DNA from: Nocardioidaceae bacterium
GTDB taxonomy: Bacteria; Actinomycetota; Actinomycetes; Propionibacteriales; Nocardioidaceae
Length of the DNA: 48,035 nucleotides
Reading direction: 5' to 3'
Assembly (NCBI GenBank): GCA_025927595.1
Contig: JAICLD010000002.1
Location: 1-48,035, forward strand
Notes under the pieces: model-generated
Databases searched by the model: none
The model's input: only the letters and a program-made list of their open reading frames with translations
Told to the model about the DNA's origin: nothing
Part shown: piece after piece, positions 23,941-35,228 of the stretch
How positions within the stretch are numbered: the stretch's first letter is position 1
How the letters are laid out: every line of letters starts with the position of its first letter
Position numbers and translations under genes: made by a program

Positions 23941-23980
23941 GGTCAGACCATGTCAGAACATGGCAGAACATGTCAGAACA
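23941..23980. repeat. Four tandem 10-bp units upstream of the phosphoesterase
   Basis: On the plus strand four consecutive 10-mers follow TGNCAGAACA: GGTCAGACCA, TGTCAGAACA, TGGCAGAACA, TGTCAGAACA. The last overlaps the acetyltransferase stop codon at 23973. The 10-base period places each unit on the same helix face, so this may be a multi-site operator for the phosphoesterase gene. Confidence 0.7.
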
Positions 23981-24818
23981 TGATCGTCGCGAAGGTGGCG
24001 CTCTGCCGGAAGCCGACCCGTTCGTAGGCACGCCGCGCGGGGGTGTTGTGCGCGTTCACGTAGAGCGAGACGACCGGCGCGATGTCGGCGAGCGCCAGCG
24101 ACACCACCGCGGCCATGCCGGCCTCCGCCAGCCCCTCCCCGCGACGGTGCGGGGCGACGTACACGCCCTGGACCTGGCAGGCGTACGGCGACGTGGCGGC
24201 CACCTCGGCCTTGAAGACCACCCGCCCGTGCTCGAAGCGGGCGAAGGACCAGCCGCGGGAGACCAGCTGCGCGACCCGGGCCCGGTACAGGTCGGCGCCG
24301 CCCCCGAGCTCCGGGGAGACGCCGACCTCCTCGGTGTACATCGCCACGCACGCCGGGTAGAGCGCGTCGAGGTCGGACCGCTCGCTGCGCCGGACCAGCG
24401 GGTCGGGGGCGACGGCCGGCTCGGCGCCGATCTCCAGGTGCGGCTGGTCCCAGCGCAGGTCCCGCGCCGGTCCCCAGTGCGGCTCCAGCCGCCGCCACAG
24501 CGACGCGACCGTCCCCGCCGGCCCCACGATCGTCGCGCAGCGACGGCGCTGCGAGACGGCCCGGGCGGCGAACGCCTCCAGGGCCGGCTCGCCCGCCTGC
24601 ACCGGCACGAGGTTCGCCGCGGAGTGGCACGCCGCGACCAGCCGGCCGTCCACCAGGTAGCCCCACATCTCCCCGCCCAGCCAGCGCGGGTCCAGCCCGG
24701 TCAGGCGGCTGCGGTAGTCGGCGAACGCGTTGACCACCGGGTCCTGCGCGGCGAGCTCCAGCATCGCGGGGAGGTCGGAGGGGCCGAGCAGGCGCAGTCC
24801 GTGCTGGGTGCCGAGCAC
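23973..24818 (-). CDS. GNAT acetyltransferase with N-terminal DUF4081 domain
   Basis: The 281-residue protein starts at GTG 24818 (VLGTQHGLRLLGPSD). TAGGCT lies seven bases upstream and overlaps the dctA stop, a leaderless promoter pattern that supports this start. The N-terminal half matches the DUF4081 type; the C-terminal GNAT domain has CQVQGVYVAPHRRGEGLAEAG (acetyl-CoA loop) and SLYVNAHNTPARRAYERVGF. Proteins of this type lie near ispG in mycobacteria and other actinobacteria. The acceptor substrate is unknown. Confidence 0.88.
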   Translation of the reverse strand: MLGTQHGLRLLGPSDLPAMLELAAQDPVVNAFADYRSRLTGLDPRWLGGEMWGYLVDGRLVAACHSAANLVPVQAGEPALEAFAARAVSQRRRCATIVGPAGTVASLWRRLEPHWGPARDLRWDQPHLEIGAEPAVAPDPLVRRSERSDLDALYPACVAMYTEEVGVSPELGGGADLYRARVAQLVSRGWSFARFEHGRVVFKAEVAATSPYACQVQGVYVAPHRRGEGLAEAGMAAVVSLALADIAPVVSLYVNAHNTPARRAYERVGFRQSATFATIMF

Positions 24819-26238: not shown

Positions 26239-26275
26239 GGGGGGTCCGGGGGGTCCGGGGGGTCCGGGGGTGTCC
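26239..26275. repeat. G-rich tandem repeat between dctA and the sensor kinase
   Basis: About three and a half copies of a 9-base GGGGTCCGG unit form several runs of four to six G on the plus strand. The run lies in the 152-base divergent intergenic region, about 22-58 bases before the dctA start. It could fold as a G-quadruplex and affect dctA expression; this is untested. Confidence 0.7.
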
Positions 26276-32356: not shown

Positions 32357-33754
32357 GTGACCTTCACCTCGACCGACACCCCCGTCACCGCCCCCGGCAC
32401 CGCGCCCGCCTCCTCCACGGCCGGCGGCCCCGGGCTCCCCCAGGAGCGGCGCCTCGTCACGGCGATCCCCGGACCCCGCTCACAGGAGCGCTTCGAGCGA
32501 CGCGGCCGGCATGTCGCCGCCGGGGTGGGCACCACCCTGCCCGTCTTCGTCGAGTCCGCGGGCGGCGGCGTCCTCGTGGACGTCGACGGCAACTCGCTGA
32601 TCGACCTCGGCTCGGGCATCGCGGTCGTCGGCGTCGGCAACGCCGCCCCGCACGTCGTCGACCGCGTCGTCGAGCAGGTCCGCGCGTTCACCCACACCTG
32701 CTTCATGGTCACGCCCTACGACGTGTACGTCGACGTGTGCGAGCAGCTCGGGGAGCTGACGCCCGGCGACCACGACAAGCGCTCGGCGCTGTTCAACTCC
32801 GGCGCCGAGGCGGTCGAGAACGCCGTCAAGGTGGCCCGCTCCTACACCGGGCGCAGCGCCGTGGCCGTCGTCGACCACGCCTACCACGGCCGCACGAACC
32901 TCACGATGGCGATGACCGCGAAGTCGATGCCCTACAAGCACGGGTTCGGGCCGTTCGCCAACGAGGTGTACCGGGTCCCGACGTCCTACCCGTTCCGGGA
33001 GCCGACGGCGATCTCCGGCGAGCAGGCGGCCGATCGCGCGATCGACGTACTCGAGAAGCAGGTGGGGGCGACCGACCTCGCGTGCCTGGTGATCGAGCCG
33101 ATCCTCGGCGAGGGCGGATTCGTGGTGCCGGCCGACGGGTTCCTGCCTCGGCTGCGGGAGTGGACCGCGGCGCACGGCGTGGTGCTGGTCGCCGACGAGA
33201 TCCAGACCGGCTTCTGCCGCACGGGCGACTGGTTCGCGTGCGACCACGAGGGCGTCGTCCCCGACCTGATCACGACCGCGAAGGGGATCGCCGGCGGCCT
33301 GCCGCTCTCGGCGGTGACCGGCCGCGCGGAGATCATGGACTCCGTGCACAACGGCGGCCTGGGCGGCACCTACGGCGGCAACCCGGTCGCCTGCGCGGCG
33401 GCGCTCGGCGCCATCGCGACCATGCGCGAGGACAACCTGTGCGGGCGGGCCCGCGAGATCGGCGAGCTCGTCGGCGGCCGGCTGCGCGGGATCGCCGAGC
33501 GGCACCCCTGTATCGGCGACGTCCGCGGCCGCGGCGCGATGATGGCGGTCGAGGTCGTCGACGAGGACGGCCGCAGCCCGCACCCGGTGCGTGCGGCGGC
33601 GGTCTCGGCGTACTGCCACTCCCAGGGAGTCGTGACGCTGACCTGCGGGACCTACGGCAACGTGCTGCGGTTCCTGCCGCCGCTGGTGATCTCCGACGCC
33701 CTGCTCGGGGAGGGGTTCGACGTCGTCGCCGAGGCCTTCGACGCCACCGCCTGA
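32357..33754 (+). CDS. gabT: 4-aminobutyrate (GABA) aminotransferase
   Basis: A 465-residue class-III PLP aminotransferase. Motifs are [52 protein letters not shown] (PLP-binding Asp) and [19 protein letters not shown] (Schiff-base Lys). It matches actinobacterial GabT, which converts GABA and 2-oxoglutarate to succinate semialdehyde and glutamate. The first about 30 residues ([20 protein letters not shown]) are disordered. Beside the aminobutyraldehyde dehydrogenase it would complete putrescine-to-succinate-semialdehyde degradation; no gabD is visible in the window. Confidence 0.93.
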
Positions 33755-33762
33755 CCCGCCGC

Positions 33763-33965
33763 GACGGCGCGTCTGGCGCTTCCCGACCCGGTGAGACGGC
33801 GCGTCTGGCGTCCTACGAGGCGGTGAGACGGCGCGTCTGGCGTCCTACGAGGCGGTGAGACGGCGCGTCTGGTGAAGTTGCCCCGCCAAATGCGCCGGGT
33901 CAGCAGCACACCGCCCGCCAGACGCGCCGGGTCAGCAGCATGCAGCCCGCCAGACGCGCCGGGTC
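33763..33965. repeat. 32-bp-period repeat array with converging orientations
   Basis: Four cores GACGGCGCGTCTGG start at 33763, 33795, 33827 and 33859, exactly 32 bases apart. Three cores in inverted orientation, CCAGACGCGCCGGGTC (the first degenerate), start at 33886, 33918 and 33950, again 32 apart. Most direct units contain the palindrome AGACG-GCG-CGTCT. The array fills the gap between convergent gabT (stop 33754) and the saccharopine-like gene (stop 33999). The remaining 33966-33998 shows nothing recognisable. Confidence 0.9.
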
Positions 33966-33998
33966 GGCAGCTTGCAGGCGATCGGTCGTACGTCGGAG

Positions 33999-35228
33999 CT
34001 AGTCCTGCGGCGGGGGACGGTCACGGCTGCCAGCGTCGCGCTGGCCCCACGGTGCGCCGTACTGCGTGAGCAGGTCCAGGAACGGGACGGCGTCGAACGC
34101 CTCGGGCCCGAGCACACCTGTCCCGGACCAGGTCCCCCTGGCCAGCAGCTCCAGCGCCACGACCGGGTTGACGGCGGTCTGCCAGACGACGCACTGGTGA
34201 CCGTACTCGCTCATCGACCACTCGTTGTCCACCACGTGGTAGAGGTACGTCGACCGGGGCCGGCCGTCCTTGCCGGTCCCGGTGACCTGCAGCCCCGCGC
34301 AGGTCTTTCCGCGCATCCTCTCCCCCAGCGTCGCGGGGTCGGGGAGGCAGGCCGCGACGACGTCGCGAGGGCTGACCTCGACACCGCCGGCGCGGACCTT
34401 CTCGGTGCGGTCCAGGCCGAGCAGGTGCAGCGTCCGGAGCACGCCGATGAACTCCTCGCCGAGGCCGTACTTGAACGTCACCCGCTTCGCGTCGACCCAG
34501 CGCGGCATGAGGAGCACCTCCTCGTGCTCGACGTTGACGCACTCGACCGGCCCGATCCCCTCGGGGAAGTCGAAGACCTCCGGCTCGCTGAACGGCTCGG
34601 TCGTGAACCAGTCGCGGCCCTTCTCCCACACCACCGGCGGGTTGAGGCACTCCTCGATCGTCGTCCAGATGGAGAACGAGGGAGCGAAGTCGTGACCCGC
34701 GACGGTCAGGTTCGCCCCGTCGCGAACGCCGAGCTCGTCGATGTCCTCGAACAGGTGGTCCGCGGCGTACCTCGCGAACACGTCGGACAGCCCCGGCTCG
34801 ACGCCGATCCCGCACAGCGCGAGGCGCCCCGCGCCCTCCCAGTCGGCGGCCTTCGCGAACTGCTCGTCGCCAAGCTTCACGCCGACCTCGGAGTACGGCG
34901 CGTCGGGATGGGGCCGCGACAGGCTCATCGCCATGTCGAGGTAGTCGGCTCCCCCGTCGTACGCGCCGTCGAAGATGGGCATCACGAACCGCGGGTCGAC
35001 GGCGTTCATCACGTGGGTGACTGCGTGCTCACGGACGAGGGACGCGACGGCGGAGGCCGACGACGCGTCGACCCGTGCGGCCACGAAGCGTCCGTCGGCG
35101 GCCGCAGCCCGCTCCGCGCGCGCGAGGTCGTAGTCGCTGACGACGAGCAGCTCGAAGAAGTCGCGGCGGGCCGCGATGGAGGCGAACGCCGCGCCGACAC
35201 CGCCGGCGCCGACGAGGAGGATCCGCAC
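33999..35228 (-). CDS. Saccharopine dehydrogenase-family NAD(P)-dependent protein
   Basis: The 409-residue protein starts at GTG 35228, one base after the patD stop. The N-terminus MRILLVGAGGVGAAFASIAA is a Rossmann NAD(P)-binding motif, followed by DLARAERAAAADG and a LCGIGVEPGLSDVFARYAAD segment typical of the saccharopine dehydrogenase/Lys9-like family. Carboxy(nor)spermidine dehydrogenases belong to the same family. It is translationally coupled to the aminobutyraldehyde dehydrogenase, so a role in polyamine or GABA metabolism is inferred. The reaction is unknown; lysine degradation is the main alternative. Confidence 0.85.
   Translation of the reverse strand: MRILLVGAGGVGAAFASIAARRDFFELLVVSDYDLARAERAAAADGRFVAARVDASSASAVASLVREHAVTHVMNAVDPRFVMPIFDGAYDGGADYLDMAMSLSRPHPDAPYSEVGVKLGDEQFAKAADWEGAGRLALCGIGVEPGLSDVFARYAADHLFEDIDELGVRDGANLTVAGHDFAPSFSIWTTIEECLNPPVVWEKGRDWFTTEPFSEPEVFDFPEGIGPVECVNVEHEEVLLMPRWVDAKRVTFKYGLGEEFIGVLRTLHLLGLDRTEKVRAGGVEVSPRDVVAACLPDPATLGERMRGKTCAGLQVTGTGKDGRPRSTYLYHVVDNEWSMSEYGHQCVVWQTAVNPVVALELLARGTWSGTGVLGPEAFDAVPFLDLLTQYGAPWGQRDAGSRDRPPPQD

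Follow-up and report, generated by a model that had tools for sequence, protein, structure and literature searches.

The window analysed here is a 48,035-nucleotide stretch from the assembly of a Nocardioidaceae bacterium, and in the gap between two of its convergent genes lies an array of short units repeated at a fixed period, first in one orientation and then in the other. The locus raises the question of what this array is, how it came to be there and what it may do to the two genes that end at it; the original prediction had left the choice between a termination or insulation element, a protein-binding array and a mobile repeat family.

The array between gabT and a saccharopine-dehydrogenase-like gene

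The gene to the left of the array, gabT (32471 to 33754, + strand), encodes a 4-aminobutyrate transaminase; its coding part was confirmed by the NF004714 profile, above cut-off, its start is predicted, and its stop codon abuts the + arm. The stop codon of the gene to the right (33999 to 35228, - strand) faces the - arm, and this gene, which had been called saccharopine-like, is indeed a carboxynorspermidine-synthase/saccharopine-dehydrogenase-like gene by the NF043000 profile, which it matches with 162 bits, the cut-off being 800. In the gap between them, the four direct units begin at positions 33763, 33795, 33827 and 33859 and the three inverted ones at 33882, 33914 and 33946, in exact 32-nt steps, and both the unit starts and the TRF scores (176 and 143) bore out the predicted arrangement. 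The first direct unit (33763 to 33794, + strand) lies 8 nt past the gabT stop and has the core CGACGGCGCGTCTGGCG; the second (33795 to 33826, + strand) reads AGACGGCGCGTCTGGCG; the third (33827 to 33858, + strand) is the same as the second, spacer included; and the fourth (33859 to 33872, + strand) is a core alone, followed by the apex between the arms (33873 to 33886, on no strand). From the start of the last + core to the start of the first - core there are 28 nt, which is the most frequent value in the family described below. The inverted units, all on the - strand, comprise a first one with the degenerate core CCAAATGCGCCGGGTC (33882 to 33913) and two with CCAGACGCGCCGGGTC (33914 to 33945 and 33946 to 33977). 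The repeat tract reaches about 33977 rather than the 33965 given at first, and the cores, described as uniform, are so in three of the four direct units (AGACGGCGCGTCT) and in the second and third inverted ones, but not in the first direct unit, which has CGACGG, nor in the degenerate first inverted unit.

When the array-bearing intergenic sequence was shuffled 20,000 times, not once did the 11-mer core occur twice or more, which confirms that the array is real. RNA folding of this G+C-rich array gave moderate hairpins (z -3.7 and -3.2), consistent with the long stems in several registers that had been proposed, and the hairpins predicted at many other loci were strong, reaching -215 kcal/mol (z -21.6) at locus L173 of a relative. 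No T-run terminator was found between 33600 and 34200, and the Rfam covariance models gave no match to the array at E values up to 1. A coding role as a peptide repeat was rejected because the unit length of 32 nt is not a multiple of three, and a CRISPR array was rejected on account of spacers of 10-18 nt that are partly identical and of the presence of arrays at dozens of sites. The window contains two other short tandem repeats, at 23942-23982 (four copies of the 10-bp GTCAGAACAT) and at 26239-26275 (four copies of the 9-bp GGGGGGTCC), whose sequences are unrelated to the array.

A repeat family dispersed behind genes

When the core was searched for genome-wide and in relatives, 86 exact copies of GGCGCGTCTGGCG were found in the 2.94-Mb assembly to which the window belongs, an incomplete (82 %) Nocardioidaceae MAG, compared with a single copy of the reversed control; the copies follow one another mostly in 32-nt steps and are often close to contig ends. 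The same core is numerous in two of the six other genomes of the genus (G004 and G006), and the shorter core CGGCGCGTC forms arrays at 31-33-nt steps in six of the seven genus genomes, with a control near zero, as well as in several genomes from other Nocardioidaceae genera. The seventh genus genome, G005, has a repeat of different sequence. In a phylum-wide sample of 397 genomes that included our own, 18 others had one or two matches and none had the flanking consensus, a chance-like result, and a scan of named genomes returned one further Nocardioidaceae MAG and isolated matches in unrelated taxa. Matches in 88 viral stretches, single in all but one, look like chance and were set aside, and lone cores within coding sequence, which can be read as the peptide ADPARLA, were discounted as probably fortuitous. 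On contig 186 of our genome (7254-7320) a 32-bp array passes into seven cores spaced 9 bp apart (GGCGCGTCT); this run-away microsatellite closes the contig and may be an assembly artefact.

The architecture of the arrays was analyzed at about 110 loci of 13 genomes that were chosen for holding arrays, so that the figures describe arrays and not genomes; genes at these loci were called with a codon-usage caller written for the analysis, which reproduces the genes of the window. Of 289 direct steps, 260 measured 32 nt and nearly all others 31 or 33 nt, and 32 nt was still the dominant step among spacers that differ at more than three of their nine free positions. In facing elements the + arm comes first and the - arm follows. 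Where an arm had a called neighbour, it pointed away from the 3' end of that gene in 93 cases but not in 35, mostly lying from -5 to +10 nt relative to the stop, and in our genome and in G004 the first unit often provides the TGA stop itself (cTGACCCGG). Genome G001 is an exception, its units being embedded in a larger composite element and located farther from stops. At its loci L199-L208 this composite repeat, of roughly 250 bp, consists of GACCCGGCTCGAACCTCCCGC units, CGGCGCGTCTTGCCC units and then CTTCCCCAGGCG repeats, mostly away from stop codons.

Each unit comprises about 22 conserved nucleotides, made up of CGA[G/C][T/C]CGGCGCGTC and a genome-specific right half, plus about 10 free nucleotides that complete the 32 bp. 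The left part, CGA[G/C][T/C]CGG, is common to several genera, whereas the right half varies by genome: TGGCG in ours and in G004, TGCACG in G002, CGCAGG in most copies of G006, TGCAG in G003 and G108, TTGCCC in G001 and G199, CTGAC in G135 and TGCCCC in G228. Behind one and the same gene family, arrays differ in sequence from species to species and keep their plan, with periods of 32, 31 and 21 nt. An array-blind survey of 0.99 Mb of Nocardioidaceae DNA, the window apart, detected 16 intergenic repeats that have inverted copies; nine lay between convergent genes (9 of 71 convergent gaps), and periods of 22, 31 and 32 accounted for 11 of the 16. Two other families of the order, sampled over 0.26 Mb, had no such repeat behind convergent genes. 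In G150 a 22-bp phased family, GAGTTGGGCCCC, reaches 88 copies (control, 5) with the same plan of a + arm and a - arm, as at 813267-813420 and 3916026-3916059 of contig 1. In this small sample, periods near 21-22 and 31-32 nt are suggestive of two and three helical turns.

Filled and empty sites were compared at two places, behind gabT and at the nuclease locus described below. The end of contig 131 of G002, behind gabT (L095), carries a long inverted repeat with CGCCGAGGCG..CCCGTTCCG that resembles the repeat flanking the nuclease homologue of G002 and may be an element or an assembly chimera. Spacers within a single array are similar or identical, and L175 contains a 96-bp higher-order repeat, from which we suggest that the arms would grow through ordinary tandem duplication. 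Unit number does vary freely, as a neutral minisatellite would have it, but unit length, arm order and placement at stop codons are kept across genera. Taken together, these results make it very probable that the array in the window belongs to a REP-like family dispersed at gene 3' ends; the proposal of a mobile repeat family is therefore well supported as to dispersal, whereas movement is something that we infer.

The gene bracketed by the repeats

By comparing array-adjacent genes between genomes, we found one gene that lies next to arrays in our genome (contig 196, 7095-8057, protein P0002) and in G003, G004 and G199, and its homologues were then fetched regardless of arrays. Bracketing was scored as an inverted 16-mer common to the 330 nt upstream and the 230 nt downstream of a gene. 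A perfect inverted 16-mer surrounded 13 of 24 homologues but just one among 305 control genes of comparable length, and a match of at least 15 of the 16 positions was observed for 16 of 24 and 8 of 305, respectively. In a second set, the bracket was perfect at 9 of 15 Nocardioidaceae loci, one of which was our own gene again, and at 1 of 10 from outside the family. The neighbourhoods of 23 orthologues fell into 14 upstream and 11 downstream clusters, and therefore the repeats go with the nuclease gene rather than with one locus. On contig 196 the convergent neighbour of the nuclease gene (L051, 8174-10111) shows weak matches to HemN_C and VWA_2 and is the common downstream neighbour in four genus genomes.

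The right half of the dispersed units was compared with the flanks of the nuclease gene of the same genome, excluding from the units the nuclease loci present in the set. The two agreed at 7 or 8 of the 8 positions in 10 of the 12 genomes, G001 and G081 being the failures, and the summed match of 81 was reached in none of 20,000 permutations (54±4.6), a permutation that ignores relatedness. For G005, which lacks the core, the flank repeat of its nuclease gene, GAGGCGCGCGTCGT, was predicted beforehand to be dispersed, and 22 copies of it were found (control, 0), of which 15 lie elsewhere than at the gene, with 0 and 1 copies in our genome and in G004, respectively. Similarly, copies of the 22-bp family of G150 lie beside a nuclease paralogue at 3916170. 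Our genome has a second paralogue (L449; contig 180, 14802-15734) bracketed by a different 33-bp unit, CGGCGCGTCCCCAGC, of which no other copy was found in the 0.35 Mb of our genome that was searched. Other paralogues, such as L279, L276 and most homologues from outside Nocardioidaceae, have no matching flanks. One homologue from outside the family (L452, in G665) is bracketed by TTTGCGTTCATTCGTC and its inverse, which have no relation to the units of Nocardioidaceae. The nuclease gene is not alone in being bracketed, since facing arrays with 340-730 bp between them also surround other sequences (L226 2964-3641, L055 9083-9887, L221, L227 and L234); the reading frame within L226 is, in our reading, GNAT-like.

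The bracketed protein has about 320 residues. Its N-terminal two thirds (24-199) match AbiEi antitoxin profiles, the winged-helix profile PF13338 being above cut-off in most homologues tested and the PADLOC AbiEi models also matching, and its C-terminal part matches REase_MTES_1575 (PF18741) with E values down to 2e-7, below the curated cut-off. Residues D245, E256, G259 and H263 are invariant across 16 homologues, a set that in our reading would fit a PD-(D/E)XK/Vsr-like nuclease, whose activity is predicted. A profile search of the PDB gave nothing significant, the best match being the mobile intron protein 3r3p (E 0.36), and the Y1 transposase profile PF01797 matched in none of seven genus genomes compared with 5 of 14 control genomes. 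The sites to which AbiEi proteins attach as monomers are 23-bp repeats, and such repeated sites also serve their autoregulation (PMC7319586); this site length is close to the roughly 22 conserved positions of the unit. Because the bracketed gene encodes an AbiEi-type winged helix, the proposed protein-binding array is plausible, with binding putative.

Explanations for the arrays

REP, REPIN and BIME elements are short extragenic repeats of tens to about a hundred copies located within 20 nt of stops; REPs lie behind genes or between convergent genes, sometimes provide the stop codon, form opposite-orientation pairs and are species-specific, and RAYT (TnpA-REP) genes are bracketed by the same repeats as the dispersed REPs (PMC3733652; PMC8266576). 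The Nocardioidaceae family is likewise a short extragenic repeat with many dispersed copies (86 against 1 for the control), located behind coding regions and often between convergent genes (G001 excepted), with opposite-orientation pairs able to form one hairpin and with a nuclease gene bracketed by the genome's own repeat. In contrast to REPs, its single units are weakly palindromic, only the AGACGGCGCGTCT variant being a near-palindrome, both arms show strict 32-bp (or 22-bp) tandem phasing, and the bracketed gene encodes an AbiEi-type winged helix together with a putative PD-(D/E)XK-type nuclease. The system works like REP/RAYT by anatomy, placement and behaviour, but it falls outside that family on two defining points: its unit is not a GTAG-tagged palindrome, and no Y1 HUH enzyme was found in the seven genus genomes.

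CGTC REPs, which have 8-9-bp stems and 4-5-nt loops within one unit and a CCA-like tail and rarely cluster, have been reported from five phyla, Actinomycetota not among them (PMC3733652). They are also extragenic, lie at gene 3' ends and have no RAYT, and the core described here happens to end in CGTC, but its unit consensus, compared with the published description, has no such stem, loop or tail. The operators of AbiEi and Rv2827c resemble the arrays as repeated sites of about 23 bp for winged-helix monomers, and the bracketed protein is AbiEi-like; however, those operators sit at one promoter, whereas the Nocardioidaceae units are dispersed behind genes and the protein adds a probable nuclease domain. 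The position of the nuclease gene within its presumed target and the weak match to 3r3p recall homing endonucleases, although there is no intron or intein and cutting of the target is here presumed. Bacterial minisatellites and MIRU-VNTR loci are intergenic tandem repeats of variable copy number, as is the array in the window, but this one has two facing arms, stop-codon placement, a genome-wide unit and a bracketed nuclease gene. In the open-access papers that were searched, neither these arrays nor this nuclease-repeat pairing was described.

With somewhat better than even chances, we regard the array in the window as a non-autonomous copy of a Nocardioidaceae REP-like dispersed repeat family with a non-RAYT nuclease partner, and from the sequence comparisons the AbiEi-like nuclease is probably the functional partner of the repeats. 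It is a good candidate for driving their spread, although a flank match to the dispersed family is not proof that the nuclease gene moves it. The protein would bind the sites of about 22 bp and would drive the spread and homogenisation of the units, most likely by cutting or nicking units that are then restored by copying repair, a homing-like gene conversion that would explain genome-wide homogenisation. Against this explanation stand the presumed nature of movement, cutting and binding, the mismatches in G001 and G081 together with a permutation blind to relatedness, the several paralogues with non-matching flanks (L279, L276 and most of those outside Nocardioidaceae), the arrays that occasionally bracket other genes (L226, L055), the flank repeat of L449 seen nowhere else in the 0.35 Mb searched, the REase_MTES_1575 match under its curated cut-off and the G001 arrays within a composite element away from stop codons.

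The alternative that survives best, although we consider it unlikely, is that the AbiEi-like protein is a regulator, with the arrays as phased cooperative sites where bound protein would act as a block or insulator to transcription between convergent genes, those at its own gene serving autoregulation, and with units spread by recombination and selection and not by the nuclease. Periods of 32, 31, 22 and 21 nt near whole helical turns, a spacer whose length is kept while its sequence is free, and the AbiEi precedent of repeated 23-bp sites (PMC7319586) would fit such a regulon. However, the turnover of a whole genome's units between sister species would be hard to achieve by point selection at dozens of sites, the majority of sites are behind genes and not at promoters, and the protein has a probable nuclease domain with invariant motif residues.

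Because the facing arms stand directly behind stop codons, a long hairpin can form at the end of the transcript from either neighbouring gene, and on the host genes the effect of the arrays would be that of a 3'-end hairpin, protecting or attenuating transcript ends. That the arrays affect transcript ends is a possibility to which we give somewhat less than an even chance. The termination or insulation option stood as far as position is concerned, with units abutting stop codons, but intrinsic terminators combine the G+C-rich hairpin seen here with a T-run after the stem, which was not found between 33600 and 34200. Less likely still than a regulon is a reading in which the repeats were selected as bidirectional hairpin terminators or 3'-end stabilisers, ordinary recombination spread them and the nuclease gene is one more that collected them: placement, convergent context and strong hairpins would suit it, but the T-run is missing, a minority of convergent gaps has an array with an inverted copy (9 of 71), and two-sided bracketing, which occurs far more often at the nuclease gene than at the controls, stays with it across different neighbourhoods. 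We find it improbable that the units are terminal repeats of a transposon moved by some other transposase with the nuclease gene as cargo or passenger, as the resemblance of the bracketed gene to a unit between inverted repeats and the longer composite element of G001 might suggest, since that gene is nearly always of the AbiEi-nuclease family and the PF01797 search of seven genus genomes revealed no Y1 transposase. A neutral local minisatellite without common function or spread is very improbable, despite the similar or identical spacers within an array, the 96-bp repeat of L175 and the 9-bp run-away on contig 186, since one unit occurs at dozens of unlinked sites, homogenised per genome, its length is kept despite unrelated spacers, arm order and stop-codon placement are fixed, and the idea that the sites have no sequence in common is already contradicted.

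Returning to the REP-like family with its nuclease partner, architecture, dispersal, 3'-end placement, a sequence shared within each genome and inverted copies around the nuclease gene were all observed. A wider reading, to which we give a little less than even odds, is that Nocardioidaceae harbor a second, independent REP-like system, in which helically phased 3'-end arrays would be spread and homogenised by an AbiEi-type winged-helix PD-(D/E)XK nuclease outside the known transposase classes, with several paralogue-repeat pairs per genome and pairs changing so fast that sister species differ at the same sites. A repeat family with no detected Y1 transposase is tied to one nuclease gene by a genome-by-genome sequence match, and therefore a direct test of its spread needs no more than one protein and one 32-bp site, while the fixed phasing and free spacer sequence offer a clean way to separate DNA-binding from RNA-hairpin explanations of gene-end repeats.
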